Shown here piece after piece: positions 483 through 41,246 of a stretch of DNA of 41,845 bases (positions within the stretch are counted from its first letter, which is position 1; every line of letters starts with the position of its first letter). The stretch lies in assembly GCA_031266335.1 (NCBI GenBank), contig JAISBF010000144.1, forward strand, positions 1-41,845. Direction: 5' to 3'. The stretch comes from Verrucomicrobiales bacterium (GTDB lineage: Bacteria > Verrucomicrobiota > Verrucomicrobiia > Methylacidiphilales > JAAUTS01). A program made the position numbers and the translations under genes. A model generated the notes under the pieces. The model made no database searches, was not told the origin of the DNA, and saw nothing but the letters and a program-made list of their open reading frames with translations.

Positions 483-3400
483 ATGAGCACAAATAAAACC
501 ATCAAAGGGCTGGCCGTGGCGTTGTCACTGTCAGCGGTCTGTCTGGCCGGCTCACCGTCAGCGTGGGCGGCGGTGACTTGGGACAATGTCACCAAATATG
601 GCGACTGGTCGCTGGGCGGCACGGTGTATGAACTTGGTTCCGGTGAGACACCGCTGCCGGGCAGCAACGGCATCGTCGATCGCTACACTTATCCCGGCAC
701 CGGCGCGTATTATGACTCCGGCACGATACCGCTGAATGACATATACAATCTTAATATTCTCTCCTTCTATGACCAGCGTCATAATGGCGGCACGCCGCCC
801 GCGAATTATGTGCTTACGTTCGCCGGCACGGGCGCGATGATTTTCGGCGGCGGTAACGAACCGCTTTGGTCAACCAGCGGCATTATTCTTGGCGCGAGCA
901 TGAGTTATCGCAATCTCACGTATCAATTCAACACGGACATCTACGTCGGCGGCAATTTCAACGCCGCGAATTACTCCACGGTTTTCTTTGTCAACAACAG
1001 CGCGCCGTCGCAGAACAACACCTTGGTATTCGGCACGACGGCCGACCGCAAAACCATCGCCGGTCTGCAAACCAACGTCAGCGGCACGGTCGGCCTGCAA
1101 TTGTACGGACCGAGCGGCGGCGTCATCAACGACCACCTCGCTGACGGTGTCGGGCAGGGCGACCCCGAGGCTCCTTTGACCGGCGCGACGACGCTGGCGC
1201 TGACGATGTTTTCCTCCGCCACCTGGACGCTCACCGGCAGCGCCAGTTACACCGGCGCGACCCAGGTCATGGGCGGCGGCCGGCTGGTGCTCGATAACAC
1301 TTCGCTGAACGCGGAAAAAATTTCCAACCAGCTGGTGCTCGGCGGCACGATGTGGACCGGTAACAACTGGATTCTGGGCGGCGGCGGCGCGTCGGTCGAA
1401 CTCATCGGCAGCGCCGCGGCGGCCAGCGCGGAGACGCTGGACACGCTGACGGTGCTCAACGGCGCGAATCAAGTCATCGTCACGCCCGGCGCGGGGCAAA
1501 CGGCGGTATTCAACACCGGCAGCGTCACGCGCGGCAGCGCCTCGACCGGCGGCGCGACGGTGGATTTTCTGGTCAACGGCAGCGGCGGCAGTTTTACCAC
1601 GACGAACGCTGACGGTGATCTCGGCGCGTGGGCGACGTTGAATGGCGACGACTACGCCAGCGCCAGCAGCGGCAGCCTCGTCGCGGCGACGTACACGGCG
1701 GCGTGGGGCGCGGGCAACAACGTCAGTGTCAGCACGGACAGCGTCGCTGACGGCGCGACGGCGAAGAATTTGAAAATCAGCGCGCCGGCGACGCTGACGC
1801 TGACCGACAACAACACGCTGAGCGAAGGCGGCATCCTGTTCGCGGCCAGCGCGGGCGCGGACGACGCCGTGATCACCGGCGGCACGCTGACGGCGGGCGG
1901 CGGCGAGTTCATTATCCAGCAGCACAACACGGCCGCCGCGCTGGACATCGAATCCGCGCTGTCAGCGGCGATGCTGACCAAGACCGGCGCGGGCGACCTC
2001 ATCGTCAGCGGCACCAGCAACGCGAGCATCGTGAACATCAACCAGGGCGTGTTGCAACTGGGCGCTGACAATGTGCTGCTCGCCACCGGCACGATCAATT
2101 TGACCACCGCCGGCGCGACGCTGGACTTGAACGGCCACGACCTCACGACCTGGAGCATCCAGTCGCTGAACATGTATTCCGGCAAGGTCGCGCTGGATTA
2201 CGGCATGACCGCCGTGGTCGGCAACTTCGCGGCGGGCACCGAGGCGACGCTGACCGTCAATCGCGCCAATGACTGGACGGTGCAAACGGACGCGTTTTAC
2301 GGCGACTTGCAGACCGGCGACGGCGCGATATTGAATATTGTCAAAACCGGCGCCGGCGTTGCCAGACTGGCTTTTGTCCAGAACGGCGAGAACAATCGCG
2401 GGCAATACATCACCGGCAACTCGGTGTCGCAAGTCTATAATATCATCGCGGGCAACGTGAGCGTGGAACAAGGCACGCTGACCATCGGGCGCGACTTGTA
2501 TGTGTACGGCGGCCTGGACCTGGCGGCCGGCGCCTTGCTGGCGAACTGCGGTGCCGGGCAAAACGCGAATACCCTGCAAGCGTTCACCGGCCTGACCGGC
2601 GCGGGCAATTTGCAAAGCTGGGCGCGCGCGGGTTATATTTTCAACCTGGACGGCTCGTCGGAGATGGAGGTCTGGACCGGGCAGATCACGGGCGGCTCGC
2701 CGGTTGTATTCAACGGGGCCGGCACGCAGTATGTCGGCTTGCAAACCAACGTCGGCAACAACGGCCTGCTCGCGGCCGGCAACGCCGTGGTGATTACGCC
2801 GGGCTTCACGGTATCCCTCGGCATGGCGAACGACAACATCTTCTTCTCGCCGCTGAACGTGGCGGGTCAGGGCGTGATTAAAGTGACCGGCACCAGCGGC
2901 GTGGTGGCCGGTGTCGCTGGCGTGAACGCCATAATCGGCCTCACGCTGGCGGGCGGTACGATTTGGATTGCGCCGGAAGGCAGCGGGGAGAACATCACCG
3001 TCAGCGGCATGACCACCACTGCCGCCAGCGCCATTTCCTACGGTCGCGCGGCGCTTTTGAACGCTGCCAACATTACCCAGCTTGGCGGCAACAGCACGCT
3101 GTTGCTGGATCGCGGCGCGAACAACAGCCTGGACTTCCAACTGGGCAACGCGGCCTCGACCAACGCCAAGTTCGTCCGCAACCAGAACGGCACGCTGGTG
3201 CTCACCGCCGCGCACGGGTTGGGCGAGTTTGGCGGCGCGGAAAAACTCACCGTCTTCGGCAGTGAGTCGGCGCTGCCGGTGCTGACCAACGACATCATGA
3301 ATACCTCCATCGTCACCGCTGACGGTGTGACCGGCGCCGGCTCGTTCCTCACCACCAGTACCGCGGGTGTCACGAGCGGCGTGGTGTTGAAAGAAGCGAT

Positions 3401-5171
3401 CTACACCACTGACCTTGCCGCCGCCACCGGAACCTCGGTGGTCAAACACAGCGGCGACATCGCGCTGGCCGACAACACCGCGGTTTACGCCTTGCGCAAC
3501 GACGGCTCCATCGCCAACGATTACACGCTAACCGTGGGCACTGGCGCCGCCGGTTCGCAGGCCGGCTTGATCATGAACAACGCCGCCATCACCGGCAGCG
3601 GTACCATCACTGTTGGCGAGAGCGAGCTGACCGTCTATGTCAGCGGCAGCAACCGGCTGGAAAACAAACTCAACTACGCCAACAACAACAATTTCGTGGG
3701 GTTGACATTGTTCGGCGACGGCCTGCTGCAAATCACCTCGCCGCAAACTTTATGGCAGATGGTGTATCTCAACAGCGGCGTGCTGGAACTGAACGGGGTG
3801 GCGCAGGCGAACTGGGAGAGTCACAGCAGTTTTTGGTTGAAGGGCGGCGTGTTGCAAGCCAGCGGCAACTTCACGCGCACTTTCTCCAGTGCCAACAACA
3901 ATTCGTTCATGTGGTATGACGGCGGGTTTGCCGCTGGCAGTGAGGCGGGGCTGACGGTGAACGTGGGTGGCGACGGACGGACGCTGACCTGGCAAATCAC
4001 CAGCGGCTTCCTGAGCGATTACAGCGTGATGAAACTCGGCTCCCAATACGCCAAGGGCATGGTGACGCTGGTCAACAACATTGACCTGGGCGCGTCCACG
4101 TCGGCGGCCTTCACTGGCGAAGCGCAATACACCGGTCGTCAGGACGGCAGCGGCGGCAATTTGTTCCGCCAAATCGAGGTGGTTGACAACCCCGATTCGG
4201 GCGCCGACTACGCCATGATCAGCGGGGTGATCAGCAGCCAGATGGATTACAAGGGCATCCAGAAGAGCGGCGACGGCTTGCTGTTGTTGACCGGGGAAAA
4301 TACTTACACCGGCCCGACTTCCATTGCGGAAGGCGTGTTAGGCATTGTCGCTGACAGTGGTTTGGGCGCGGCACCGTCAGCGGCGGCGCCGATCACCGGC
4401 CACGTGAACCAGGGCACGGTGTTGATTAACGGCGGCGCGACGTTGCTGGCTTTCGGTAGCGTGACTCTCAGCGCCAACCGCAACATCCTGCTGGCCTCCG
4501 GCAGCGACGGCTCGCGCGGGGCGCGTATTGCCACGGCAGAGAACGGGATACTGACCTTCGGCGGTCAGCTGGGGGATTCGGTCGGTGAACAAGGCTCGCT
4601 GCTGGTCAACGGCGCGCTGCGGCTGACCGGCAGCTCCACCATCAGCGGCTTCACCGAAGTGGAAGAAGGCACACTGCTGGTGGACGGCGGCCTGAGCACC
4701 GCGCATGTTGTCGTTGATACCGGCGCGAAACTCGGCGGTTCCGGTCTGTTGACCACCAGCACCGGCGGCATCAGCGTCAGCGGCATTCTCGATGCCACTG
4801 AGGCGCTGACACTGGACTTGGCAGCGGACCAGAAATTGGAATTTCTTTCCGGCGCGACTTTGTTGGTGGACGCTAACAGTGCATTGACCTTCGCCAGCGA
4901 AGGTGACTGGCTCACCGGCAGCGGCAACGCGACGCTGGAGTTAACCGGCAACTTTGATTACGCCACGCAATACACCGTTTTGACCAACATCACCACCGAG
5001 GACTTCAGCTTCGCCACCATCAGCGGCTACGACACCGCGAACTACGAGGCGCAATGGGGATTGTCGGGCAACAGCTACATCCTGACCTTCGACGTCATCC
5101 CCGAACCGAGCACCTGGGCGCTGATCGTGACCGGTGTCGCCTTGTTGACCATACTGCGCCATCGCCGCTGA
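483..5171 (+). CDS. autotransporter-repeat (PATR) surface protein with PEP-CTERM sorting tail
   Basis: This is a 1562-residue secreted protein. The N-terminus is a signal peptide with a basic start, a hydrophobic core and an AWA-type cleavage site near residue 29. The body is a low-complexity Gly/Ala/Thr/Asn beta-solenoid-like passenger with autotransporter-associated strand repeats. Examples are near residue 500 (TKTGAGDLIVSGTSNA) and near 1258 (KSGDGLLLLTGENTYTG). The C-terminus is a PEP-CTERM signal: VIPEPSTWAL, a hydrophobic helix, then RHRR. No outer-membrane beta-barrel domain is visible, so anchoring probably depends on an exosortase encoded elsewhere. The start is supported by GGAGGAAG about 6 nt upstream. 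It stands alone between repeat-rich regions. The ligand or role is unknown; adhesion or envelope decoration is only inferred. Confidence 0.88.
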   Translation: MSTNKTIKGLAVALSLSAVCLAGSPSAWAAVTWDNVTKYGDWSLGGTVYELGSGETPLPGSNGIVDRYTYPGTGAYYDSGTIPLNDIYNLNILSFYDQRHNGGTPPANYVLTFAGTGAMIFGGGNEPLWSTSGIILGASMSYRNLTYQFNTDIYVGGNFNAANYSTVFFVNNSAPSQNNTLVFGTTADRKTIAGLQTNVSGTVGLQLYGPSGGVINDHLADGVGQGDPEAPLTGATTLALTMFSSATWTLTGSASYTGATQVMGGGRLVLDNTSLNAEKISNQLVLGGTMWTGNNWILGGGGASVELIGSAAAASAETLDTLTVLNGANQVIVTPGAGQTAVFNTGSVTRGSASTGGATVDFLVNGSGGSFTTTNADGDLGAWATLNGDDYASASSGSLVAATYTAAWGAGNNVSVSTDSVADGATAKNLKISAPATLTLTDNNTLSEGGILFAASAGADDAVITGGTLTAGGGEFIIQQHNTAAALDIESALSAAMLTKTGAGDLIVSGTSNASIVNINQGVLQLGADNVLLATGTINLTTAGATLDLNGHDLTTWSIQSLNMYSGKVALDYGMTAVVGNFAAGTEATLTVNRANDWTVQTDAFYGDLQTGDGAILNIVKTGAGVARLAFVQNGENNRGQYITGNSVSQVYNIIAGNVSVEQGTLTIGRDLYVYGGLDLAAGALLANCGAGQNANTLQAFTGLTGAGNLQSWARAGYIFNLDGSSEMEVWTGQITGGSPVVFNGAGTQYVGLQTNVGNNGLLAAGNAVVITPGFTVSLGMANDNIFFSPLNVAGQGVIKVTGTSGVVAGVAGVNAIIGLTLAGGTIWIAPEGSGENITVSGMTTTAASAISYGRAALLNAANITQLGGNSTLLLDRGANNSLDFQLGNAASTNAKFVRNQNGTLVLTAAHGLGEFGGAEKLTVFGSESALPVLTNDIMNTSIVTADGVTGAGSFLTTSTAGVTSGVVLKEAIYTTDLAAATGTSVVKHSGDIALADNTAVYALRNDGSIANDYTLTVGTGAAGSQAGLIMNNAAITGSGTITVGESELTVYVSGSNRLENKLNYANNNNFVGLTLFGDGLLQITSPQTLWQMVYLNSGVLELNGVAQANWESHSSFWLKGGVLQASGNFTRTFSSANNNSFMWYDGGFAAGSEAGLTVNVGGDGRTLTWQITSGFLSDYSVMKLGSQYAKGMVTLVNNIDLGASTSAAFTGEAQYTGRQDGSGGNLFRQIEVVDNPDSGADYAMISGVISSQMDYKGIQKSGDGLLLLTGENTYTGPTSIAEGVLGIVADSGLGAAPSAAAPITGHVNQGTVLINGGATLLAFGSVTLSANRNILLASGSDGSRGARIATAENGILTFGGQLGDSVGEQGSLLVNGALRLTGSSTISGFTEVEEGTLLVDGGLSTAHVVVDTGAKLGGSGLLTTSTGGISVSGILDATEALTLDLAADQKLEFLSGATLLVDANSALTFASEGDWLTGSGNATLELTGNFDYATQYTVLTNITTEDFSFATISGYDTANYEAQWGLSGNSYILTFDVIPEPSTWALIVTGVALLTILRHRR

Positions 5172-5173
5172 CC

Positions 5174-5425
5174 CACTGGGAGCGCCGGCTTCCAGCCGGC
5201 AACGAAGCGGGCGAGACGCCCGCGCTCCATAAGCCGGCAAGATGCCGGCGCTCCCAGTCATGCCGTGGTGTGACGCACTGGGAGTGGCAACTGCCAACGG
5301 ACGGGGAATGTCGGCAGGCGCCTATGGAGCGCGGGCGTCCCGCCCGCTGACACTGGGAGCGCCGGCTTCCAGCCGGCAACCGAGCGGGCGAGACGCCCGC
5401 GCTCCATAGGCCGGCAGACAACCGG
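5174..5425. repeat. GC-rich palindromic interspersed repeats (two main copies)
   Basis: Two similar blocks, about 5174-5265 and 5349-5418, contain nested hairpins. These include GCCGGC-TTCCA-GCCGGC and GCGGGCG-AGA-CGCCCGC, bounded by ACTGGGAGCGC-type ends and inverted GCGCTCC words. The intervening stretch (5266-5348) carries a rearranged partial copy. This looks like the REP-like intergenic family seen in many Verrucomicrobiota and relatives, whose translation yields spurious peptides such as RRLPAGNEAGETPAL. It may also end transcription of the surface protein gene. Confidence 0.8.
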
Positions 5426-5815: not shown

Positions 5816-5869
5816 GGCACGAAGTTGGGAGAACGGCGCTCCATGCCGGTGTCACGAGGTCAAGGTGAA

Positions 5870-6925: not shown

Positions 6926-6976
6926 GGATTAAATATGACCGCTGCCGGCGGGGTTGCAACGCCGGCGGTCGCACGG

Positions 6977-7576
6977 TCAGCGGCGGGTGGGCGGGCCGCC
7001 CGGCGTCGCGTCGTGCAGGTAAATCGGCTCCAGCGCCAGTCCCGGCTCGGCGGGGAAACGCAGGAACGCCCGGCCCAGGTCCGCCGCCGACGGTGCTTCC
7101 GCGCGCATGGCGAACGGCAGCGGGCCGACGCTGACGCTGAGGCGGTGACGGGCGGCGAGCCGCCGCAGCTCATCGTCAGCGACCAGCCGCGTCGGCGCGA
7201 CCAGCTCGCCGCCGGCGTAGGCGGTGTGAAAAAATTTGCCGCGGCGCGCATCGGCGAAGATGCCCAGGTCGGGTTCGGCGCGGTGCCGCCACGCCAGCGC
7301 GCGCGTGCTGCGCATGGGAATCACGCGGCTGCCGAGCGCGGCGGCGAGTCCCTGCGCCGTGGCGATGCCGACGCGGATGCCGCTGAACGAGCCGGGGCCG
7401 ACGCCGACGATGATGGCGGCCGCGTCGCGCAGCGCGCCGCTGACGGCGCGCAACCCCGGCGCGAGGCCGCCGGAGGCCCGCCCGCTGACGGTGGCGCCGG
7501 CGATCCGCTCGCCGTCGGCGAATAACGCCCAACTGGCCGGCTCGGCGGAGGTTTCGATGACGAGGAATTTGTTCAT
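6977..7576 (-). CDS. tsaB: tRNA threonylcarbamoyladenosine biosynthesis protein TsaB
   Basis: TsaB is the non-catalytic partner of TsaD in making t6A37 on ANN-decoding tRNAs. The 199-residue protein begins MNKFLVIETSAEPASWAL, the ASKHA-type start typical of TsaB. It then carries the family segment VGVGPGSFSGIRVGIATAQG. The Met at 7576 was chosen over an upstream in-frame Met at 7678 because family homology starts there and it gives a 4-nt ATGA overlap with tsaE. The upstream extension only translates tsaE in another frame. TsaD and TsaC are not in this window. Confidence 0.93.
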   Translation of the reverse strand: MNKFLVIETSAEPASWALFADGERIAGATVSGRASGGLAPGLRAVSGALRDAAAIIVGVGPGSFSGIRVGIATAQGLAAALGSRVIPMRSTRALAWRHRAEPDLGIFADARRGKFFHTAYAGGELVAPTRLVADDELRRLAARHRLSVSVGPLPFAMRAEAPSAADLGRAFLRFPAEPGLALEPIYLHDATPGGPPTRR

Positions 7577-8004
7577 GGCGCGGGCGCCTCGATGCGCCGC
7601 CGGGTGGCGCCGCTGACGGTGATGGTGATGTCGCGGCAGTTTTTTTCCGGCCACGGGCCGGGGTAACGGTCGGGCCATTCGATGACCGTCACGCCGCGGT
7701 CGCCGGGCAGCTGTTCCGGCAGGTCGAGCAGCGACCAGTCAGTGTCAGCGCCGAGCCGGTACAAATCCCAATGAAAGACCGGCAGCCGGCCGTCGCGATA
7801 TTCATGCAGCAGGGCGAAAGTCGGGCTGGTGACCCTGGCCGTGGCGCCGAGCGCGGCGACGAATCCTTGCAGCCAGGTGGTTTTGCCCGCGCCAAGGTCG
7901 CCGCGCAGCCGCAGCACCGCGCCGGCGCCGATCCCGGCGGCCAGCCGCGCCGCGTGGGCGCGGGTGTCGGCGGGGGAACGGGAAAGAAACACCGGGGATG
8001 ACAT
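7573..8004 (-). CDS. tsaE: tRNA threonylcarbamoyladenosine biosynthesis ATPase TsaE
   Basis: TsaE is the P-loop ATPase that drives turnover of the TsaBD complex in t6A synthesis. The 143-residue protein has Walker A GDLGAGKTTWLQGF near residues 35-48. It also has the TSPTFALLHEY switch segment and the conserved HWDLYRL and VIEWPDR motifs, in family order. Length is normal for the family. It overlaps tsaB by 4 nt downstream and follows the TPR membrane protein gene by about 19 nt. Confidence 0.94.
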   Translation of the reverse strand: MSSPVFLSRSPADTRAHAARLAAGIGAGAVLRLRGDLGAGKTTWLQGFVAALGATARVTSPTFALLHEYRDGRLPVFHWDLYRLGADTDWSLLDLPEQLPGDRGVTVIEWPDRYPGPWPEKNCRDITITVSGATRRRIEAPAP

Positions 8005-8023
8005 AAGCCGGCCCGCCGCGCGA

Positions 8024-8671
8024 TTATTTTTTCCCGCTGTCTGTTGGCAGGGCGCGCAGCAATTGACCGGCCTCGGCCTGGTAGCTGCTGCCGAGGTCGC
8101 GCGCGAGAAAGTCGGTCAGCGTCTGGCGCGCCGCGCTGACGTTGTGCTCGGCCAGATACCCGCGGGCCAGGGCGACCGCCGCGCCGCCCGCGTAGGGGTT
8201 GGCCGGCTTGGCGCTGACGATGGCCAGGTAGGCGGCCTGGGCCTCGCTCTGGCGGCCGGCGGCGGCGAGGCATTGCGCGCGGGCGAATTGCGCGGGGGCG
8301 GCCAGCGGACTGTTAGCACGCTGTTGCGCGTAGCGCGCGTACAGTTCGGCGGCGGCAAGATAATCCTGCTGTTCCTGTTGGCCGGCGGCGGTGAACAGCA
8401 GCGCGGCGGCGCCGGCGGCGGTGGCGGGGTATTGGTCGGCGACCTGCTGGAATTGTTCCGCGCCGACGGCCTTGGCCAGCGCGGCGGCGGCGGTTTCCTC
8501 GGCGTGTTGCCGCTGGTGCCGATACCACAGCACGGCGGCCACGACGCTGACGATGACGAGCAGGCCGATGAGAATGCCCCGCACGGTCCGGCCCAAACTC
8601 TGGTCCTCGACCAGCACGGGCTGATCATTGAAAATGTTATTGCTAGGTTCTGCCATAAAACCATTGAGCAT
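8024..8671 (-). CDS. membrane-anchored tetratricopeptide-repeat protein (YfgM-like)
   Basis: About 215 residues long. A short cytoplasmic N-terminus is followed by one transmembrane helix (TVRGILIGLLVIVSVVAAVL) and an Ala/Gln-rich helical domain with TPR-like pairs, for example AGAAALLFTAAGQQEQQDYL and AQFARAQCLAAAGRQSEAQ. The architecture resembles YfgM/TPR_21 proteins that assist envelope protein handling, but sequence identity cannot be judged here. The start is uncertain. Met at 8671 has AAAGGA 12 nt upstream, Met at 8656 has no clear ribosome site, and 8701 is also open. It heads the minus-strand group that includes tsaE, tsaB and glpX. Confidence 0.75.
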   Translation of the reverse strand: MLNGFMAEPSNNIFNDQPVLVEDQSLGRTVRGILIGLLVIVSVVAAVLWYRHQRQHAEETAAAALAKAVGAEQFQQVADQYPATAAGAAALLFTAAGQQEQQDYLAAAELYARYAQQRANSPLAAPAQFARAQCLAAAGRQSEAQAAYLAIVSAKPANPYAGGAAVALARGYLAEHNVSAARQTLTDFLARDLGSSYQAEAGQLLRALPTDSGKK

Positions 8672-8701
8672 GGGAACAGTTTGTCCTTTAGACAAGCGCA
8701 A

Positions 8702-8911
8702 AGTTGCGCCGGCGGAGTTGGTCGATTCGCCACCAGCCCGGGCGGAGTCGAGGCAGCGGACGGCCCGGCGTCACGCTGACGATGAATCGGTTGTTATGAA
8801 ATTGCGGGCTTGACGCCGCTGACCGGCCGCCGCTGACACTGGCGAGGGTAAAATACTTTAACGGGATGAAATTTACGTAATCTGTTTATTTACAAAAAGT
8901 TTCGATAAAAA
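8702..8911. other. non-coding region between divergent gene groups
   Basis: No gene was recognised between the TPR protein gene and the mraZ promoter. The stretch holds two copies of the dispersed word CGCTGACRVTG (8774 and 8831). It becomes AT-rich from about 8850, as expected near promoters. No clear promoter for the minus-strand genes could be assigned. Confidence 0.6.
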
Positions 8912-8956: not shown

Positions 8957-8988
8957 GAAAAAACCGCGATAGGCAGGGAATTGTGACG

Positions 8989-9589: not shown

Positions 9590-10504
9590 ATGGCAGACGG
9601 GCACACACCGGTGTTGTTGGGGGAAGTCATGGAAGTATTGCAACCAGGCGAAGGCAGGCGAATGCTCGACGCGACTTTTGGGCGCGGCGGGCACAGCCGC
9701 GCCATGCTGGCGACCGGCGCGTCCGTGGTGGCGCTGGACCGGGACGCTGACGCCGAGGTCGCGGCCCAGTCGCTGACAGTGGAGTTTCCCGGCGCGTTCC
9801 GGTTCCGCCGCGCAAATTTTTCCGCACTGTCAGCGGTCGCGGAGGAATTGGGGCCGTTCGACGGCATTTTGCTCGACCTGGGCGTGTCATCGCCGCAACT
9901 GGACACGGCGGCGCGCGGCTTCAGTTTCCAGCAGGACGGGCCGCTGGACATGCGAATGGACCAGGCCGCCACGGTCAGCGCCGCCGAGTTGGTGAACCGC
10001 GCCGCTGAGCCGGAGCTGGCGGAGTTGATCTTTAAATTCGGCGACGAGCCGCGCGCGCGCCGCATCGCCCGCGCCATGGTCAGCGCCCGCGCGCGGGAAA
10101 AAATCACCCGCACCGCGCAACTGGCGGCGGTGGTCGAGGCCGCGGTCGGTGGCCGGCGCGGGGCGAAAATCCATCCCGCCACCAAGACCTTCCAGGCGCT
10201 GCGCATCGCGGTCAACGACGAGCTGGGCGCGTTGCGCGCGGCGCTGACGGCCGCGCCGGCGGCGCTGACAATGGGCGGGCGGCTGGGCGTCATCAGTTTT
10301 CACTCGCTGGAGGACCGCCTGGTGAAGCAGTTCATCGCCACCCGCAGCGAACCGGAATTGCGCGGCGAGGGCCAGGCCTTCGGTTGGCCGAATCCCGATT
10401 ATTGTTTCAGGAAAATCGGCCGCTGGCTGCCCGCTGACACTGAGGTGGCCGCCAATCCGCGCGCCCGCAGCGCCCGCTTGCGCGGCGCGGAAAGGATCGC
10501 ATGA
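9590..10504 (+). CDS. rsmH: 16S rRNA (cytosine-1402-N4)-methyltransferase RsmH (MraW)
   Basis: RsmH uses S-adenosylmethionine to methylate N4 of C1402 in the 16S rRNA P-site. The 304-residue protein starts with HTPVLLGEVMEVLQP and has the SAM loop LDATFGRGGHSRAML near residues 26-40. Further on are ILLDLGVSSPQLD, RGFSFQQDGPLDMRMD and the C-terminal ISFHSLEDRLVKQF, all hallmarks of the family. No good ribosome-binding site lies close to the start; a GGGA is 17 nt upstream. Its stop overlaps the next gene by 4 nt (ATGA). Confidence 0.96.
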   Translation: MADGHTPVLLGEVMEVLQPGEGRRMLDATFGRGGHSRAMLATGASVVALDRDADAEVAAQSLTVEFPGAFRFRRANFSALSAVAEELGPFDGILLDLGVSSPQLDTAARGFSFQQDGPLDMRMDQAATVSAAELVNRAAEPELAELIFKFGDEPRARRIARAMVSARAREKITRTAQLAAVVEAAVGGRRGAKIHPATKTFQALRIAVNDELGALRAALTAAPAALTMGGRLGVISFHSLEDRLVKQFIATRSEPELRGEGQAFGWPNPDYCFRKIGRWLPADTEVAANPRARSARLRGAERIA

Positions 10505-12641: not shown

Positions 12642-14110
12642 AACTCGCCGACTTGACGCAAGGGGTGACGATCAGCGGGCGTTACGACGCCGCTGACGGT
12701 GACGTGGAAATTTCGTCGCTGGCGTATGACGCGCGGCAAGTGACGCCGGGGGCGCTGTTCTGCACGTGGCGCGGGTTCAAATCGGACGGGCACCGTTTTG
12801 TCGCCGACGCCGTGCGGCGCGGCGCGGCGGCGCTGCTGGTGGAAAAATTGCCGGAACCGCTGCCGCGCATTCCGACGCTGTTGGTGGCGTCGGGGCGGCG
12901 GGCGCTGGCGCTGCTGGCGGCGAACTTTTACGGCCATCCGGCGCAAGCGCTGGATTTGACGGGCATCACGGGCACCAACGGCAAATCGTCCACCGGCTTT
13001 TTGCTGCATTATCTCAAGGAACAAGCGGGCCGCAAATGCGGGCTGCTCGGCACGGTCGAGTATCGCGCGGGGGACGAGAAAATCGCCGCGGCGCGCACCA
13101 CGCCGGAAAGTTCGGACTTGCAGGCGCTGCTGGCGCAAATCCGCGCCGCCGGCTGCCGGTCGGCGGTGCTGGAGGTGTCCTCGCACGCGCTGGAACTCGA
13201 CCGCGTGTACGGCGTGCCGTTCCGCGCCGCGGTGTTCACCAACCTGACGCGCGACCACCTGGACTTCCACGGCACCATGCAGGACTATGGCCAGGCCAAG
13301 CGCAAATTGTTCGCCACGCTGCCGGCGGGCAGCCTGGCGGTGATGAATCTCGACGACCGCTACAGCGCGCGCCTACTGGACGCGGTGCCGCTGACCGCGC
13401 GGACCGTGACCTACGGATTCGCGCCGCCGGCGAGCTATCGGGCGGAAAACATCCAATTGAGCGCCAACGGCAGCGTCTTCGACCTGGTCACGCCGAACGG
13501 CACGCTGCTGGCGCGCTCGCCGTGGTTGGGCCGCTACAACGTCGCCAACACGCTCGCGGCGCTGACGGTGATGGCCGCCGGCGGCGAGGCTTCGCTGGAG
13601 GAACTGGCCGACTGGCTGCCGGCCGCGCCGTATGTGCCGGGCCGGTTGCAAAAAGTGCCGCACGGCGGCGGGTTCACCGTGCTGGTGGATTACGCCCACT
13701 CGGACGACGCGGTGCGCAACGTGCTGCAAAGCCTGCGCCCGCTGTGCCGGGGCAAATTGAAAATCTTGCTCGGCTGCGGCGGCGACCGCGACTGCACCAA
13801 GCGCCCGCTGATGGCGCTGGCGGCCTGCGAGCTGGCGGACGAGGCGGTGTTCACCGCTGACAATCCGCGCAACGAGGACCCCGCGCTGATTTTGCGCGAC
13901 ATGCAGGTGGGCGTGGCGAATTTCAGCAATTACCGGGTGATTCCCGACCGGGCGCAGGCGATTGCCGCCATTCTCCGGCACGCCGCTGACGCTGACCTCA
14001 TCGTGCTGGCGGGCAAGGGGCACGAGACCACGCAGGAAATCAACGACGCGCGGCACCCGTTTGCCGACGCCGAGGTGGCTGCGCAAATCCTGAACGGAGG
14101 CGCCGCATGA
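12638..14110 (+). CDS. murE: UDP-MurNAc-L-Ala-D-Glu:meso-diaminopimelate ligase MurE
   Basis: MurE adds the third residue of the peptidoglycan stem peptide in the cytosol. The 490-residue Mur ligase has the ATP loop TGTNGKSS near 111-118; Ser replaces the usual Thr after the Lys. The FTNLTRDHLDFHGTM segment leads to the carbamylated-Lys region (QAKRKLF). DNPR at about residues 407-410 is the signature of the meso-diaminopimelate-adding subtype, so the wall is probably DAP-type. It overlaps ftsI and murF by 4 nt each. Confidence 0.96.
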   Translation: MKLADLTQGVTISGRYDAADGDVEISSLAYDARQVTPGALFCTWRGFKSDGHRFVADAVRRGAAALLVEKLPEPLPRIPTLLVASGRRALALLAANFYGHPAQALDLTGITGTNGKSSTGFLLHYLKEQAGRKCGLLGTVEYRAGDEKIAAARTTPESSDLQALLAQIRAAGCRSAVLEVSSHALELDRVYGVPFRAAVFTNLTRDHLDFHGTMQDYGQAKRKLFATLPAGSLAVMNLDDRYSARLLDAVPLTARTVTYGFAPPASYRAENIQLSANGSVFDLVTPNGTLLARSPWLGRYNVANTLAALTVMAAGGEASLEELADWLPAAPYVPGRLQKVPHGGGFTVLVDYAHSDDAVRNVLQSLRPLCRGKLKILLGCGGDRDCTKRPLMALAACELADEAVFTADNPRNEDPALILRDMQVGVANFSNYRVIPDRAQAIAAILRHAADADLIVLAGKGHETTQEINDARHPFADAEVAAQILNGGAA

Positions 14111-32230: not shown

Positions 32231-32745
32231 GCGGCGCGGTCGCCAAGCGCGGTGGCGCGGTCGCTGAGGGAGGTGGGCGCGGTCGCCAAGCGCGGCGGCG
32301 CGGTCGCTGAAGGAAGTGGGCGCGGTCGCCAAGCGCGGTGGCGCGGTCGCTGAAGGAAGTGGGCGCGGTCGCCAAGCGCAGCGGCGCGGTCGCTGAGGGA
32401 GGTGGGCGTAATCGCCAAGCGCGGCGGCGTGGTCGCTGAAGGAGGTGGGCGTGGTCGCCAAGCGCGGCGGCGTGGTCGCTGAAGGAGGTGGGCGTGGTCG
32501 TCAAGCGCGGCGGCGTGGTCGCTGAGGGAGGTGGGCGTAGTCGTCAAGCGCGGCGGCGCGGTCGCTGAGGGAGGTGGGCGTGGTCGTCAAACGCAGCGGC
32601 GCGGTCGCTGAGGAAGGTGGGCGTAGTCGCCAAGCGCGGCGGCGTGGTCGCCAAACGCGGCGGTGTTAATCGTCAAGCGCAGCGGTGTAGTCGCCAAACG
32701 CAGCGGTGTAATCGTCAAGCGCGGCGGTGTAATCGTCGAGAAAAG
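32231..32745. repeat. GC-rich minisatellite, 43-bp unit grading into a 21-bp unit
   Basis: GGTCGCCAAGCGC recurs at 32238, 32281, 32324 and 32367, exactly 43 nt apart. Each unit consists of two related halves, GGTCGCCAAGCGCGG-type (21) and GGTCGCTGAGGGAGG-type (22). About nine to ten units run to roughly 32640, with increasing GTCGTCAAGC/ATCGCC variants. Then only the 21-bp half repeats to about 32745. Because 43 is not a multiple of 3, all three minus frames stay open and give spurious repetitive ORFs. I see no gene in it. Confidence 0.92.
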
Positions 32746-32924: not shown

Positions 32925-34187
32925 CTAACAACCCCCCGCCGCCGCCGCCGGCACAATGATCGCGTCACTCATGCCGTGGATGATTTTCTTGTCCGCCGGC
33001 GTAATCGTCACCAACACCCCCTTCAGCGCCGCCTGGCCGTCCTCGACGAAATAGTACGGGCACAGCCGCGCCCGCCCCGGCAGCACCGTCAGCGCCCGCG
33101 CCGCCTCGTCCCAGTACGGATGCTCGACCATGCGGCCCTTCACAAAACGCTGCATGATGCGCGGCGACTCCGCAAACTCCGCCAGCGCCCGCGTCACCGC
33201 CGCGCGCCACTCCTCCCCGCTCACGTCGAACCCCATCGTCACGCCGCGCGAACCCCACGCCAGCGGCGAAAACCCGGACACCTTCAACACCAGCGCGCGC
33301 TCCTTCTGCGAGAACGCCGCCACCTCGCGCCAGCTCTGCACCTCCAGGCCGGGCAGCACCGCCGACGGCGGCAACTCGGTCGGCTCCACCACCCAACTGG
33401 GCGGAATAATCGCCTGCAAATCGCGCCAATAACGGTCACCCAACTCCTGCCGCCAGAACTCGCGCAGCGGCCGCAGCCAAAACAGCGCGAGCCACAACTT
33501 TTCCTCCAGAAACGGCTTCAGCGGCGGGTCCATTCGCACCGTCGGCGAATAACTCGCTGACAGCGACGGCAAATTCCCCCAGTCGAAACACTCGAAGAAC
33601 CGGTACACCGGCTCCCCGCTGAACGTGTACCGTTCCGCCGCGCGCACCCGCCGCGCGCCGTAAAGCCACTCCATCTCCGGGCGATAATCGGCGGCCTCCG
33701 CGCTGATGACGACACTGCCGGCGGGAAAATGCCGGCGCGCCGCTGCCGTCATCCCCGTCGCGCCGCCGACGACCGGCTCGCCGAGCGCGGCGTAAGTCTC
33801 GTTCAACCACGCCGTCAGCCCCACCCCGCCGGGCACGGAATCAATCTCCGACAACGCGAACCCGCCGTCAGCGAGAATCAAATCGGGGCGGATAATCGTC
33901 GGCAAATCGTTCTTGACCGCCGCTGACCGTGCCAGCTCCACCAACTCGCGCGGCTTGCCGAGATCGAGCCATTCCGCGATCCACGCCGGCGCCCGGCCCT
34001 GCCAGCTCTTGCGGTACAACAGATTCGCCGCCTGCAGGAACTTGTGCAACCGCGGCCCGAGCCGGGCCAGAAACTCCACCGTCGCCGCGTCCAGCGGAAA
34101 CGCTGACGGCGCCACCCGCCAAGTCTTGCCCGCGAACAGGCCGCTCGCCGGCATGGCGCGCTTGATGTGTGCGATTCTCTCAATCAT
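32925..34187 (-). CDS. uncharacterised protein, possibly ATP-grasp-like
   Basis: About 420 residues, start MIERIAHIKRAMPASG (34187). I do not recognise the family with confidence. Two segments recall circularly permuted ATP-grasp (glutathionylspermidine-synthase-like) enzymes. One is RPDLILADGGFALSEIDSVP with an acidic ESD-type end. The other is LVLKVSGFSPLAWGSRGV followed by RIMQRFVKGRMV, like an ATP-binding Lys and lid region. It has no signal peptide or membrane helix, and the end is Ala/Gly-rich (IIVPAAAAGGC). It lies between a minisatellite and an inverted repeat, upstream of nothing obviously related. Ligase activity is only a hypothesis. Confidence 0.7.
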   Translation of the reverse strand: MIERIAHIKRAMPASGLFAGKTWRVAPSAFPLDAATVEFLARLGPRLHKFLQAANLLYRKSWQGRAPAWIAEWLDLGKPRELVELARSAAVKNDLPTIIRPDLILADGGFALSEIDSVPGGVGLTAWLNETYAALGEPVVGGATGMTAAARRHFPAGSVVISAEAADYRPEMEWLYGARRVRAAERYTFSGEPVYRFFECFDWGNLPSLSASYSPTVRMDPPLKPFLEEKLWLALFWLRPLREFWRQELGDRYWRDLQAIIPPSWVVEPTELPPSAVLPGLEVQSWREVAAFSQKERALVLKVSGFSPLAWGSRGVTMGFDVSGEEWRAAVTRALAEFAESPRIMQRFVKGRMVEHPYWDEAARALTVLPGRARLCPYYFVEDGQAALKGVLVTITPADKKIIHGMSDAIIVPAAAAGGC

Positions 34188-34199
34188 GGTCGGGTTTCG

Positions 34200-34353: not shown

Positions 34354-34357
34354 GAAA

Positions 34358-35236
34358 TTATTTCGTCAACAACCTCGCCGTCAACGTCAGCGCCGCCAGC
34401 AAACTGTCCGCCGAGGCCAGGTTTTTGCCAGCCAGCTCCGCCGCGGTCCCGTGGTCGGGTGAGGCGCGCCAGAACGGCAAGCCCAAAGTCAGATTAACAC
34501 CTTCCGCGAACGCCAGCAACTTGAACGGAATCAGCCCCTGGTCGTGATACAGGCACAGCACGGCGTCGAATTGGCCCGCGACAGCGGCGTTGAACACCGT
34601 GTCCGCCGGCCACGGGCCGCTGACGGTGGCGCCGCGCTTCTTGCGCAGGTGCCGGACCGCGGGCAGCACGATTTTTTGTTCCTCGTCGCCGAACATGCCG
34701 CCCTCGCCCGCGTGCGGGTTTAGGCCGCACACCGCCAGCCGCGGCCGCGCGACGCCGATTTTTCGCAACAGCGTCAGCGTCCGCTCCGCGTGCGTGATGA
34801 TCAGTTCCGGCGTCAGCAATTTAATCGCCGCTGACAATGAGCAATGCGTCGAGACCAGCGCCACGCGCAATTTTGGCGACTGCATGGTCATCGTCACCGC
34901 ATCGTCAGCGAGGCCGCCGGCGCGGGCGTAAAACTCCGTCTGGCCGGGACAATTGAAACCGACGCGCGCGAGGTTTTCCTTGCACACCGGCGCGTTGACG
35001 ACCGCCTGGATTTCGCCGTTGTGCAACAACCGCGCGGATTCGTGCAACGCCGCCAGCGCCGCTGCCGCTGACCGTTGGGAAAGTTTGCCCGGCGTGAACC
35101 CGGCGGCGCTGCCGATGACGCGGACGCTGACGCGGTGTCGCGACGGCCGGAACACCGTCAGCGCCTTGGCAATAATCTCCGGCCCGATGCCGCACGGGTC
35201 GCCGACAGTGAGACCGATGACGGGGAGTGGTTGCAT
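34358..35236 (-). CDS. pdxA: 4-hydroxythreonine-4-phosphate dehydrogenase PdxA
   Basis: PdxA oxidises 4-phosphohydroxy-L-threonine in pyridoxal phosphate synthesis. The 292-residue protein starts LPVIGLTVGDPCGIGPEIIAKAL. It has VNAPVCKENL and GQTEFYA, then the metal and substrate motifs LNPHAGEGGMFGDEE and CLYHDQGLIPFKLL, and ends with RASPDHGTA. It is somewhat shorter than the usual 320-330 residues; the shortening lies mostly in the N-terminal half. The stop codon borders the inverted repeat. Confidence 0.94.
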   Translation of the reverse strand: MQPLPVIGLTVGDPCGIGPEIIAKALTVFRPSRHRVSVRVIGSAAGFTPGKLSQRSAAAALAALHESARLLHNGEIQAVVNAPVCKENLARVGFNCPGQTEFYARAGGLADDAVTMTMQSPKLRVALVSTHCSLSAAIKLLTPELIITHAERTLTLLRKIGVARPRLAVCGLNPHAGEGGMFGDEEQKIVLPAVRHLRKKRGATVSGPWPADTVFNAAVAGQFDAVLCLYHDQGLIPFKLLAFAEGVNLTLGLPFWRASPDHGTAAELAGKNLASADSLLAALTLTARLLTK

Positions 35237-35265
35237 AGTGCCAAGTTACGCGGCGGGGGAGGGTT

Positions 35266-35440: not shown

Positions 35441-35441
35441 C

Positions 35442-36452: not shown

Positions 36453-39400
36453 TGTTCGATTTCCTGAAGTTTCGCTTTTATTTGGGTTTTGGCAAGCCGC
36501 GGAAATTTGCCGCTTACCATGATGTAATCATTGTTCCTGAACAGCATCAATTTGTTCTCTTTCACTTCCACTCCCGTTATGCCCGCCAGGGCGGCCTGCA
36601 CCCTGACCCGGTGGAACCACAAGAGCGCCTCCACCGCCGCCGGCCAGCGCCCGTAACGGTCCTTCCAGCCGGCCCGCAGGGCGGTCCATTGCGCCAGGCT
36701 TTGCAGTTCCGCCAGCTCGCGGTACGCGGCGATGCGCCAGCGCGCCTCCGTCATGTAAGCGGCCGGCACCTGCGCGCCGTCATCGTCAGTGCCGCCGCCC
36801 ACCGCCAGGAAGTCCAGCCGCAGCCTGACCTCTGGCAACTCATTATGTCGCTCGCCCCGGCAAGAGGCAATCGCTTTTTTTAGCAGGCGGCAATACAAGT
36901 CGAAGCCGACCGCCACGATGTGCCCGCTCTGCGCCGTGCCGAGCAGGTTGCCGGCGCCGCGGATTTCCAGGTCGCGCATGGCGATTTTGAACCCCGCGCC
37001 CAGCTCGGAGTACTGTTGGATGGCCTGCACCCGCTGATTCGCGTCGCCGCTGATCAGGTCGCGCGGCAGCAACAGCAGCGCGTAGGCCCGCGCCTGGCCG
37101 CGGCCGACCCGGCCCCGCAACTGGTACAAGTCCGCCAGCCCGAAGCGGTCGGCGCGGTCGATGATGATGGTGTTGGCGTTGGGAATATCAATGCCGCTCT
37201 CGATGATGGTGGTGGACACCAGCACGTCGGTCTGGCCGCTGACGAACCGGTGCATCACGTCCTCCAGCTGCTCGTCCGCCATCTGCCCGTGGCCGATGTC
37301 AATGCGGGCTTCCGGCGCCAGGCAGCCGATTCTTCTCGCGATGCTGTCAATGCTGGCCACGCGGTTGTGCAGGTAATACACCTGCCCGCCGCGCTGGAGT
37401 TCGCGCCGGATGGCGCTGACGATGAGCCGCTCGTCGTAGGCGCAAACGGTGGTGTCCACCGGCAGCCGGTTCGGCGGCGCGGTCTCGATGCCGCTCATGT
37501 CGCGCGCGCCCATCAGCGAGAAGTACAGGGTGCGCGGAATCGGCGTGGCGGACAACGTCAGCACGTCGATCAGCCGGAAATTCCGCTTGAACGCCTCCTT
37601 CTGCCGCACGCCGAAGCGCTGCTCCTCGTCAATGATCACCAGGCCGAGGTTCTTGAATTTGACATCCTTGGAAATCAGCCGGTGCGTGCCGACCACGATG
37701 TCCAGCTCACCGTCAGCGAGTCGCTGGATGACCTGCCGCTGCCGGCGCGCGGTCTGGAAACGGCTCAACAGGCCGATGTTGACGGGATAATCCGCCATGC
37801 GCTCGCGCAGCGTCTCGTAATGTTGCTGCGCCAGCACGGTGGTCGGCGCCAGGAAGCCGACCTGCTTGCCCGTCGTGGCCGCCTTGAACGCCGCGCGAAT
37901 CGCCACCTCGGTCTTGCCGAAGCCGACGTCGCCGCAAATCAGCCGGTCCATCGGCCGCGGACTCTCCATGTCGCGCTTGGTGTCCTCAATGGCCTGCAAC
38001 TGGTCGGCGGTCGGCCGGTATAGGAACGCCTCCTCGAACTCCCGCTGCCACTCACCGTCAGCGGGGAACGCCGTGCCGGGCAGGCTCTCGCGCTCGGCCT
38101 GGATTTTCAGCAATTCCGTGGCGTAATCCAGCACCGCCTGTTCCGCCTGGCGCTTGGCCCGTTCCCAGCGGTGGCCGCCCAGCGTGTCCAGCGCGGGATG
38201 CCGTTTGCCGACCCCGACGTAGCGCGACACCAGGTAAGCCTGCGCCAGCGGCACATACAGCTTGGCGTCACCGGCGAATTGCAGCGTCAGCATCGACTGC
38301 CGCCGGCCGCGCCGGTCACCGTCAGCGGGCAGCTCGCTCATGCCGCAATACAGCGCGATGCCGTGGTCGGCGTGCACGACGTAATCGCCGTCCCGGATGT
38401 CGGCGAAATCCAGCGGCGCGCGCCCCACCGGCCGCGGCCGGGGCCGCGCCGCGCGGCGCAAGGCGCGCAACGACTGGTAGCGCCCGAAAATCTCCGCGTC
38501 CGTCAGCACCGCGAGCCGTTGCGCCGTCCAGCCGAAGCCGCGCAGCAGCGGGCTTTGGCAAAACTTCACCGGCAGCGCGCCGTCCGCGGCCGCCAGCGCC
38601 AGCCGGCGTTCGCGGCACCATTCCTTGAGCCGCTGCTCCTCGCCCGCGTTGTTGCTGCTGATCCACACCTGCCAGCCGTGGTCAAACCAGTCGCGCAACT
38701 GCTGGGCCAGCAACTGATTCCGGGTTTCCAGCAACACGGGATCCGTCGTGGGCTGGTGCAGGAAATCGTGCTCGAAAAACTCCGCCACCGGCAGCGACTG
38801 CCCGGCGGCGGCGTTCGCGGCCAGGCTCACCGTCAGCGGCGGCGTCGCAAAATACGCCGCCAGCGGCGCCGTCTCCTCCTCCGGCCAGGGCCGGGCGCCC
38901 AGCGCGAGGTGCGCCGCCTCCAGCCGGGCCACCGAGCGTTGCTCCGCCAGCGCGAACTCGCGGATGGAGTCCACCGCGTCGCCGCTCCATTCCATGCGCA
39001 GCGGCGCCATGCCGCTCCACGAGAACACATCGACAATGCCGCCGCGCACCGCGTATTGCCCGCGCTGGCTCACCAGCCCCTCGCGCTGATAGCCGGCGCT
39101 GACGAGGCGCGCCAGGAACTCGGCCCGCGGCAGCGGCTGGCCGCGCCGGATTTCGTAACCTTGTTGCCGCAACGCCGCCGGCGCCGGCCAGCGGCGCTCC
39201 CAGCCCGCCTGGGTGACCAGCAGCAACTGGTTGGCGTTCACCAGCAGCGTCCCCAGCGTGTCCAGCATCTCCGCCTGCGTCTCGGGATCGGCACCGGTGC
39301 CCGCGCCCGCCGCGTCATCCGGCTCGGGCAGCGTCAGCGCGTCGCAACGCCAGGCCGCCAAATCGTTCGCCACCGCCTCCCGCGTCCGCGCGTCCGGCGT

Positions 39401-39556: not shown

Positions 39557-39583
39557 GGGTGGTTGATTATTGGGTTGTAAATT

Positions 39584-39714
39584 CAAAATTAAAAATGAAA
39601 AGTGCAAAATTGCAGTTAAAAATTCAAAATTGGATGCAGGATTCCCTGCCGGAGTCGATAGCTGCATTTTGAATTTTGCATGGCAACTTTGCATTTTGCT
39701 TTTTGCGCTTTGAG
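39584..39714. repeat. AT-rich palindromic repeat, copy 1
   Basis: The arms AAAATGAAAAGTGCAAAATTG... and ...GCAACTTTGCATTTTGCTTTTTGCG are complementary around a GC-richer core (CGGAGTCGATAGCTGCATTTTG). A second copy lies at 41247-41373. It occupies most of the space between the divergent mfd and glycosyltransferase genes, so their promoters must lie in or beside it. Confidence 0.85.
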
Positions 39715-39734
39715 TTCCTCGGCTAACATCTCCC

Positions 39735-41246
39735 ATGCCCCGAACCCCCCTCTTCCTGGCCGCCATCGCGGCAGTAACAACCTCCCTATTCCTGACCGTC
39801 CCCCAGTTGCAGTTCCGCTGGGACTACCACAACGACGAGCCGACCAAGGTGAACCAAATCCGCGACCGGGCCTGGAACCTGCGCCACCCGCCGCTGATGC
39901 TGGAGCTGGCCGCCGGACTGAGCCGGCTCACCGGGCGCGCCGACCCCCAACAACTCGCCGCCTGCGGGCGGTTGCTGTCGGCGCTGGCCGTCAGCCTGAC
40001 CATCGCCGCCGCCATGTGGCTGGCCGCCTGGCGCGCCGGCACCGCGGCCGGGCTGGGCGCGGGCGCGCTGCTGCTGGCGCAACCGCAATTGTTCGAGGCC
40101 GCCCACTACTTCAAGGAAGACGCGCTGTTCCTGGCCGGCATCATGGCCGTGCTGCTCGCCCTGGCCGGCCGCGAGCGCCAGAAAATATTCAATCTGCAAT
40201 ATAAAATATTCAATTTATTCCTGGCCGTCGCCCTGGCGCTGACCGTTAGCATTAAGTATATCGGTTGGCTCATGCTGCCGCTGGTCGTCTTATGCTGGTG
40301 GCTGGAACGGGGGCCAGCCGGTGACCGGCGGCGGGCTGGTGACCGGCGGCGAGATTGGGTTTGGCCGCTGACCGTGTTCCTGGCGCTGACGCTGGCCGTC
40401 AACGCCCCGTTGCTGGCCGACTGGCACGGCTTTCGCGCGGCGCTGGGCGACGAGTGGTACCGGCTGGGGGCGGGCGACTACGGCCTGGCCGCGGCGCGTC
40501 CGCTGGCGCGCGATTACCTGCTCCTGCTGCTCTGGCGCCTGCCCCCGGCGCTGCTGGTCGGCTGGTTGTGCTACCTGGGGTGTCGGTTGGCGCGTTATCG
40601 CTCGACCGGCGCGGCGGAGTGGGCGTTCCTGGGGACGCCGGTGCTGGCCATGCTGCTGCTGGCGCTGACGGCGAAGTTCTCGGAGCGTTACCTCCTGCCG
40701 GTGGTGGTGTTGATCAGCGTGGCCGGCTGGTACGGGCCGCTGCTGCTGATTGGCGAGTGGGCCGGGGCGCGGCGGCGGCTGGCCGCCGCCGCGCTGCTGG
40801 CGTTCAGCGCGGGCGTAACGTGGGCGGGCCAGTGGCGCGGGATTCACCGGGGCTTCCAACACGACAGCCGGGCCGAGCTGACGGCGTGGATTTGCGCCCG
40901 CCTGCCCGCCGACGCGGTCATCGCCGCGGACACCTACGCCAAGCTCAACCCCTTCGCGCTGCGGGAGCGGGTGTTGTTGGACAATTTCTTCGTGGCGGAC
41001 ATCGGCACGCTAGAGGAACTGCGGCAACTGGGCGTGACGCACCTGGTCATCTCCTACGACGTGTATCACCGCTTCATCGACGGCAGCGTCGCGCCGGCGC
41101 CGAACCAGGCGGAGGACTTTCAACGCCGCCGGCAGTTCTACACCGCCGCCCGCGACCACTTGCGCGTCCTCTGGCAAGACGACAATGCGGACCCCAAGGC
41201 GTTGCATCCGGGGTTGCTGTTGCTGGAGGTGGCTTTGGAAAATTAA
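39735..41246 (+). CDS. polytopic membrane glycosyltransferase, GT-C/ArnT-PMT type
   Basis: This 503-residue protein has about ten membrane helices. The first extracytoplasmic loop carries the acidic motif DYHNDEPTKVNQIRD and then HPPLMLEL, as in ArnT/PMT enzymes that use polyprenyl-phosphate sugars. FKEDALFL is the next conserved loop. The C-terminal soluble part (AVIAADTYAKLNPFAL, VTHLVISYDVYHRF) resembles the periplasmic domain of such proteins. The acceptor is unknown. An AT-rich palindrome is embedded at 40183-40217 (encoding KIFNLQYKIFNL), and an 18-bp duplication lies at 40320-40355 (GDRRRAGDRRR). The gene is bracketed by two copies of one repeat. Confidence 0.82.
   Translation: MPRTPLFLAAIAAVTTSLFLTVPQLQFRWDYHNDEPTKVNQIRDRAWNLRHPPLMLELAAGLSRLTGRADPQQLAACGRLLSALAVSLTIAAAMWLAAWRAGTAAGLGAGALLLAQPQLFEAAHYFKEDALFLAGIMAVLLALAGRERQKIFNLQYKIFNLFLAVALALTVSIKYIGWLMLPLVVLCWWLERGPAGDRRRAGDRRRDWVWPLTVFLALTLAVNAPLLADWHGFRAALGDEWYRLGAGDYGLAAARPLARDYLLLLLWRLPPALLVGWLCYLGCRLARYRSTGAAEWAFLGTPVLAMLLLALTAKFSERYLLPVVVLISVAGWYGPLLLIGEWAGARRRLAAAALLAFSAGVTWAGQWRGIHRGFQHDSRAELTAWICARLPADAVIAADTYAKLNPFALRERVLLDNFFVADIGTLEELRQLGVTHLVISYDVYHRFIDGSVAPAPNQAEDFQRRRQFYTAARDHLRVLWQDDNADPKALHPGLLLLEVALEN
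40183..40217. repeat. intragenic AT-rich palindrome
   Basis: AAAATATTCAAT, a short spacer and ATATAAAATATTCAATTT sit inside GC-rich coding DNA and encode IFNLQYKIFNL in a loop between membrane helices. The composition is unlike its surroundings. It resembles the intergenic TTGAATATT-type repeats and looks like an in-frame insertion. Confidence 0.65.

Follow-up and report, generated by a model that had tools for sequence, protein, structure and literature searches.

The DNA uptake sequences (DUS) of the Neisseriaceae are oriented 10-12-mers which occur in thousands of copies, many of them inside genes, and are recognised by the receptor ComP (PMC3630211). For example, Kingella oralis was reported to carry up to 5918 copies in 2.4 Mb, and the dialects of the word, which differ between relatives round a constant core, were described as barriers to exchange between species (PMC3630211). 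In Neisseria the word is ATGCCGTCTGAA and is reported to be rare in genes for surface proteins (PMC5031613), while DUS were described as biased to genome-maintenance genes (PMC2346458). The Pasteurellaceae have an uptake signal sequence (USS), AAGTGCGGT or ACAAGCGGT (PMC2346458, PMC5031613), also short and oriented, with no general orientation bias and with a different motif in one subclade (PMC2346458). A 2025 paper presented these two as the only families known to select their own DNA at binding by short enriched motifs (PMC12616744), and a 2016 review named the same two (PMC5031613). In this study, we analysed a window of 41,845 bases (guanine-cytosine (GC) content 0.65), positions 1 to 41,845 of contig JAISBF010000144.1 (C61) in the assembly GCA_031266335.1 of a Verrucomicrobiales bacterium (G000; 2.77 Mb, 222 contigs, 78% complete). 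The window is rich in CGCTGACRVTG (word A), an oriented, non-palindromic word of 11 bp whose exact matches were counted on both strands. Based on sequence comparison, word A is quite probably a DNA uptake sequence, of which a species in the same genus (G002) would use a second dialect.

Our counts revealed that the whole G000 genome holds 3683 copies of word A (1885 forward and 1798 reverse; 1.33 per kb), and 12 copies (7 + 5) of the reversed pattern used as control. The original prediction, made from the window, had described the word as far above chance there; checked on the whole genome, the enrichment was not limited to the window and ran throughout. As null model, synonymous codons were shuffled within each called gene on samples of the genome. 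In a 320-kb sample with 207 called genes, 356 copies were found against 31.0 expected (sd 5.6, maximum 46 in 200 shuffles), with one or more copies in 115 of the 207; in a larger sample of 266 called genes there were 491 against 42.8 (sd 5.4, 50 shuffles). In the window, the 26 called genes hold 65 copies against about 4.4 after the same shuffle. The excess thus survived a null model which keeps protein and codons, as is asked of an uptake sequence, and the shuffle is conservative because word A itself fills the pool of rare codons. In fact, codons suspected to be uncommon elsewhere in the window proved to be so: GCT makes up 4.9% of alanine codons outside word A and 72% inside it, and TCA 5.4% and 22.6% of serine codons, respectively. 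In line with the several reading frames noticed in the window, five of the six codon phases were used in the G000 sample; the sixth, empty one would put an in-frame TGA in the gene. The excess over the codon shuffle and the five phases therefore indicate pressure on the DNA word and not on a peptide, in agreement with the earlier suggestion of selection or biased gain of the word itself.

An iterated weight matrix from the G000 sample gave a full motif of about 14 bp, GNCGCTGMCGGTGA. With the first C of CGCTG numbered 0, the core CGCTG was nearly invariant, A was preferred over C at +5, and C at +6, G at +7 and T and G at +9 and +10 followed. The 11-bp form noticed at first was a clipped one, as the motif additionally prefers G at -2 and A at +11 and accepts C at +5 or +7. 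Outside -2 to +11 the information was 0.2 bits or less in G000, so the conservation beyond the word that marks a mobile or interspersed repeat was not found. At a loose cut-off, sites scoring with the matrix numbered about 5 per kb, and those scoring with its reversed form 0.2 per kb. Furthermore, near-cognates were in excess over the codon shuffle in the G000 sample, namely CGCTGCCGGTG (67 against 9.8), CGCTGACCGTG (76 against 11.4) and CGCTGACGGCG (38 against 6.8). Such single-base variants at the soft positions form a graded fringe of the kind a tolerant receptor would leave. The 15 copies in one surface-protein gene and the two in one short tandem array could point to an artefact, be it a motif at the protein level, a family of mobile repeats or contigs from contamination. 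This is extremely improbable given copies in more than half of the sampled genes, five codon phases, flanks that are nearly uninformative beyond about 14 bp and the agreement of four separately assembled genomes on word A; a protein-level motif and a repeat family were rejected on the first three grounds. Another candidate, a second word CTCACGCGCT in G000 and G003, proved to be 8-bp tandem arrays of GTGAGCGC; these reach about 13 units (L093, L096 and L097 in G000, L111 and L113 in G003) and were absent from the samples of five relatives.

The genus comprises five genomes (G000, G002, G003, G004 and G005), and its family has two further genera (G001 and G006). Among 62 genomes of the order, word A was found in thousands in four, all of this genus (3683 in G000, 4097 in G003, 2668 in G004 and 2520 in G005), so that three congeners of G000 are enriched as well; the other 57 genomes outside the genus had 2 to 121 copies. 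Listing the over-represented words of G002, the fifth member, gave CGCTAACG and its kin, from which CGCTAAYGRC (word B) was defined. Word B occurs 1415 times in G002 (68 for its reversed control), 14-25 times in the four congeners and at most 35 times in the other 57 genomes. The G002 motif, about GNCGCTAAYGRCGA, lies in the same frame as word A but has A in place of G at +4 and mostly C in place of T at +9. The G002 sample used for the word listing, the motif and the codon shuffle leaves out four 20-kb stretches (L131, L132, L140 and L141). Word A against the shuffle was 491/42.8 in G000, 150/13.4 in G003, 93/9.7 in G004, 79/6.6 in G005 and 3/3.9 in G002, whereas word B was 133/8.5 in G002 with 0, 0, 1 and 0 copies in G000, G003, G004 and G005, respectively. 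The words are therefore nearly mutually exclusive dialects, CGCTGAC.. and CGCTAAY.., round a constant core, as in known uptake sequences, and neither was in excess in the codon-shuffle samples of the two other genera. A pattern covering much of both words was counted in a set of 384 genomes from the class. It gave 1623-3721 copies in the five members of the genus and at most 470 elsewhere (in a 6.6-Mb genome whose reversed control gave 163).

Genome-wide scatter with near-cognates would also fit any sequence-specific DNA-binding protein, and functional selection could have multiplied word A as a site for a nucleoid protein or another organiser of the chromosome, or as a mark by which a DNA-modification or defence system knows 'self'. 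Sites of nucleoid and chromosome-organising proteins are usually fewer, and intergenic or regional. Here, 356 of the 409 copies in the G000 sample lie in called genes, where they force the use of rare codons, and one congener has replaced the word throughout; we regard this explanation as unlikely.

In the omitted G002 stretches, L131:567-19139 (contig C2) is a single open frame of 6191 codons and holds the largest G002 cluster of word A. The 20 kb of L131 have 12 copies of word A and one of word B, with GC 0.62 against 0.55 in the other G002 samples. The giant frame is perhaps a surface protein imported from an A-dialect species.

No comparable word turned up when we sampled 13 further genomes of the order and the family's two other genera, at 20 to 134 kb from each genome except one with just 7.7 kb. 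Scores there peaked with a poly-C 9-mer in G015 (z 13.5), followed by 9-mers in G001 (z 11.4) and G006 (z 11.1), against z 15.8-37.5 for the best 9-mer in each of eight positive loci. Nor was a comparable word seen in the 74 of 80 named loci with at least 8 kb, where the best 8-mer reached z 10.4. This score lies near that of the weakest positive locus, and a word of lower density could therefore have escaped notice. Among at least 124 stretches of viral contigs (at least 1.04 Mb) there was no virus clearly enriched in word A: at least 104 stretches had one copy, at least 14 two, at least five three and at least one four. The densest among the matches listed (L453) had three copies in 1.9 kb, with no further near-cognate seen.

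G000 sites were followed into the congeners in two aligned stretches, the division (dcw) cluster and the comEC region, with expectations from GC-matched windows. In G003, 48 of 56 dcw sites (96.5% DNA identity) belonged to the same class and 45 were identical against 41.9 expected; in the comEC region (95% identity) the figures were 19 of 22, and 17 against 15.4. In G004, at 77-78% identity, 12 of 41 dcw sites were of the same class (8 identical against 4.2 expected), as were 4 of 9 in the comEC region (3 against 1.0). G002 kept word A at 1 of 38 dcw and 0 of 9 comEC sites and read CGCTAA in the same place and strand at 7 of the 47 (4/38 and 3/9, respectively). Seen from the other side, 4 of 15 G002 dcw sites read CGCTGAC in G000; the comEC alignment held no word B site. 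These in-place swaps indicate that some sites were rewritten between the dialects and that most came or went since the split. The turnover between G000 and G003 was close to neutral, indicating that single sites are weakly held, which fits a tag kept by biased gain as much as one kept by selection on each copy. This turnover is also what biased gain by mutation or repair would give, in the manner of the cyanobacterial HIP1 and with no receptor involved. However, mutation bias would hardly produce an oriented 14-bp motif in which at least two positions changed together between congeners, and sites shared by G000 and G004 were kept above expectation; such a receptor-free origin is very unlikely.

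A genus tree from ComEC, MurG and DprA gave three lineages, {G000, G003}, {G004, G005} and {G002}, with a low support of 57 for their order; PilT was left out since the G005 and G006 rows looked like a paralogue. G000 has two dprA genes adjoining topA-like genes, at L228:3001-4098 (contig C78) and L229:4862-5476 (contig C94). The C78 gene is 98% identical to that of G003, and the C94 gene is 81% identical to both of these and 84% to that of G005, which points to an import from the other sub-lineage or to a misbinned contig.

Neighbouring copies of word A in the G000 sample were in like orientation in 187 pairs and unlike in 202, and over 25 loci 298 forward and 259 reverse copies showed no more dispersion than chance (p=0.23). 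With the nearly equal genome-wide counts, word A thus has both strands and no general orientation bias at the scales tested, as expected of an uptake sequence. A Chi-like site steering RecBCD or AddAB, or a replication-directed word such as KOPS, would share with word A an oriented, non-palindromic form, and Chi words differ between lineages. However, the mixed local orientation speaks against a replication-directed word (at local scales, as the replication arms are not visible on 222 contigs), and a graded motif of about 14 bp with near-cognates in excess is longer than the known Chi words. We consider a role of this kind quite unlikely. Within called genes, the coding strand carried 206 copies of word A and the opposite strand 150. 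The coding-strand copies were uniform along genes (p=0.54), and those on the other strand had a weak tendency to the 5' end (p=0.03, two tests). In the G000 and G003 samples together, pairs of copies within 60 bp were convergent in 25 cases and divergent in 11, with some sites common to both. A role as transcription terminator was considered for the convergent pairs and looks minor, as 23 of the 25 lie inside called genes. Some of the longest word-free gaps in G000 cover conserved genes, including pilB and those we take from their sequence to be gyrB-gyrA and glnA, in which synonymous substitutions could scarcely accommodate the word. Another, L099:8600-12826 on the comEC contig (C43), is a stretch of 4.2 kb with GC 0.40, against 0.61 in the genome sample.

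The search for competence genes which the original prediction had proposed turned up comEC and type IV pilus-like parts but no ComEA-sized protein over cut-off. ComEC homologues were detected in all seven genomes of the family (in pieces in G001) and in 52 of 60 genomes drawn from the order, DprA in six of the seven, PilT/PilU-type ATPases over cut-off in six, and secretins and pilin-type N-termini in all seven, with 15 of the latter in G000. The secretins of G000 and G005 were nearest GspD and one of G004 was nearest the Amuc_1098 type IV pilus family, all below cut-offs. PilB- and PilC-like proteins are present in G000, PilB below the NCBIfam cut-off. Strong matches to the ComEA family lay in frames of 376 to 803 residues with helix-hairpin-helix (HHH) motifs, which we presume to be Tex, and two weak ones below cut-off came from G001 and G006, of genera without the word, in frames 316 and 324 residues long. 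Among the pilin-like frames, the highest net charge was +7 in 258 residues, apart from a 48-residue fragment. One pilin was shared by three A-dialect genomes (L258, L268 and L299) and was not in the fetched stretches of G005.

Of the three roles named at first, an uptake sequence is to be preferred to a Chi-like site and a nucleoid-protein site, as far as sequence comparison can tell, because the dialect switches within the genus, neighbouring copies show no strand coherence and much of the machinery for competence is present. In the mechanism we propose, the tag GNCGCTGMCGGTGA, short, oriented and in thousands of copies, would be carried by most fragments of a few kb from the species' own genome. 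Tagged fragments would be caught by a receptor on the cell surface, part of an uptake machinery resembling a type IV pilus; after passage through a secretin and ComEC, they would undergo recombination assisted by DprA. Tags would accumulate as tagged DNA is taken up and recombined more often, and mutation would wear them away. The other dialect, about GNCGCTAAYGRCGA, would separate the gene pool of the species that uses it. In this scheme, what we infer is the uptake, its receptor and the force behind the multiplication of the word.

Several observations weigh against an uptake sequence. G002 still has 74 copies of word A against 7 of the reversed control, and 24 of them sit in the four stretches named above (80 kb). 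The spacing of word A is clumped, with a coefficient of variation of 1.40, and its density is 1.41 per kb in called genes against 0.75 in uncalled DNA, where gene calls are incomplete. Unlike Neisseria DUS, word A is dense in a surface-protein gene (15 copies) and absent from the gyrase genes, although mfd holds 6. As for the machinery, no PilT retraction ATPase over cut-off was found in G000, an assembly 78% complete, and no ComEA-sized HHH protein over the family cut-off in the seven genomes of the family. In the fetched stretches of these seven genomes, none of 130 pilin-like frames was strongly basic and none clearly tracked the dialects. As the two genera without the word have this machinery too, its presence allows for the word without predicting it. 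Furthermore, we found no uptake or transformation result for this lineage.

Within the window, word A has 74 exact matches, 42 forward and 32 reverse, close to the roughly 70 (40 and 30) of the original prediction; 12 of its 13 example coordinates were exact and 7493 should read 7483. The forward copies lie at 1139-1149, 1198-1208, 1444-1454, 1607-1617, 1792-1802, 2063-2073, 3317-3327, 4349-4359, 4804-4814, 5345-5355, 7129-7139, 7483-7493 (the miscited copy), 7611-7621, 8212-8222, 8545-8555, 8774-8784, 8831-8841, 9771-9781, 10263-10273, 10432-10442, 12691-12701, 13560-13570, 13984-13994, 14552-14562, 14816-14826, 14853-14863, 15231-15241, 15763-15773, 18506-18516, 21361-21371, 21388-21398, 21778-21788, 22389-22399, 22582-22592, 22693-22703, 23633-23643, 25914-25924, 28001-28011, 34618-34628, 34829-34839, 37414-37424 and 40384-40394. 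The reverse copies lie at 526-536, 553-563, 2000-2010, 2996-3006, 4372-4382 (a convergent pair with the forward copy at 4349), 4772-4782, 7171-7181, 7740-7750, 9825-9835, 14327-14337, 15392-15402, 16070-16080, 18539-18549, 18914-18924, 21226-21236, 21874-21884, 21996-22006, 22456-22466, 22846-22856, 23020-23030, 23262-23272, 25367-25377, 27557-27567, 33084-33094, 34769-34779, 34900-34910, 35153-35163, 37708-37718, 38053-38063, 38317-38327, 38828-38838 and 39329-39339. The three copies placed between genes at 5345, 8774 and 8831 are all true matches; those at 5345 and 8831 lie between called genes, but that at 8774 overlaps the end of an open reading frame (7829-8779) without Pfam match. Density is uneven as had been described, with 15 copies in the surface protein, 13 in murC-murB, 6 in murF and none in ftsI, murG and the surA-like gene, but ftsW, thought to be free of the word, has the copy at 18914. 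The copies at 14816 and 14853 belong to a degenerate 18-bp tandem array in murF (14798-14863), built on CGCTGACCGTGGCGCGGC, which includes a near-cognate of word A.

The window carries mraW, ftsI, two Mur ligases, mraY, murD, ftsW, murG, a fused murC-murB, ddl, ftsQ, ftsA and ftsZ, and this cell-wall and division cluster is adjoined by a PATR-type surface protein and the repair gene mfd, which has six copies of word A. The first seven matches of the fused MurC-MurB, at 43-48% identity, were from Verrucomicrobia-labelled assemblies or bore names from that phylum. FtsZ (26491-27828, 445 residues) scores 27.6 bits with the FtsZ C-terminal model, only just over its cut-off of 27. Two other repeats were seen: a perfect array of the 7-bp unit GCGTTCC (200-324, 17.9 copies) upstream of the surface-protein gene, and about 10 copies of a 43-bp repeat (32233-32735) between phoH and the next gene.

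Among the matches listed in a literature search that took in neither subscription papers nor preprints, no title reported such a word outside the Neisseriaceae and Pasteurellaceae, which does not prove absence. If our interpretation is true, this would be a third, unrelated case in another phylum, indicating that the trait evolves repeatedly, and the comparison could test whether tags are selected or are a passive by-product of a biased receptor. It would also be evidence, from sequence only, for natural transformation in these uncultured bacteria, and attaching the word to DNA would offer a practical way of bringing it into members of this poorly tractable phylum. With two dialects in one small genus, the origin of a bacterial sexual barrier would be directly testable.

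Of the other abundant words, HIP1 of cyanobacteria is a palindromic octamer, extremely over-represented and found also inside genes. Word A is likewise over-represented and present in genes, but it is oriented, longer and different between congeners. Chi of RecBCD/AddAB is an over-represented, oriented and lineage-specific word, shorter and co-oriented with replication; word A is also over-represented and oriented, but has about 14 bp and no local strand coherence. USS has AT-rich flanks. Unlike it, word A has flanks with little information, and its coding-strand copies lack a bias to gene ends. The letters of AAGTGCGGT are unrelated to GNCGCTGMCGGTGA, so word A is not a USS proper; nevertheless, both are short oriented words without general orientation bias and with a different motif in related groups, and the commoner orientation in reading frames reported for USS (PMC2346458) has its parallel in the excess of word A on the coding strand. 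Compared with Neisseria DUS, ATGCCGTCTGAA (PMC5031613), words A and B differ in letters and in phylum. Neisserial DUS keeps a CTG core in all dialects, whereas here CTG is present in word A (CGCTGAC) and lost in word B (CGCTAAY). Neisserial DUS works with ComP, and no basic ComP-like minor pilin was among the 130 fetched frames; unlike that DUS, word A has no clear link to intergenic terminators. The words are thus not neisserial DUS proper, which is defined by that core and that receptor. Both systems have thousands of oriented copies of a short word, many of them intragenic, and dialects between relatives (PMC3630211). By their sequences, words A and B belong to neither known family of uptake words and yet match DUS and USS in the main sequence features that can be tested. 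Self-specific DNA uptake has probably evolved for a third time here in Verrucomicrobiota, using a word unrelated to the others and a receptor of its own; the dialect switch within one genus may mark a present barrier to gene exchange between species.

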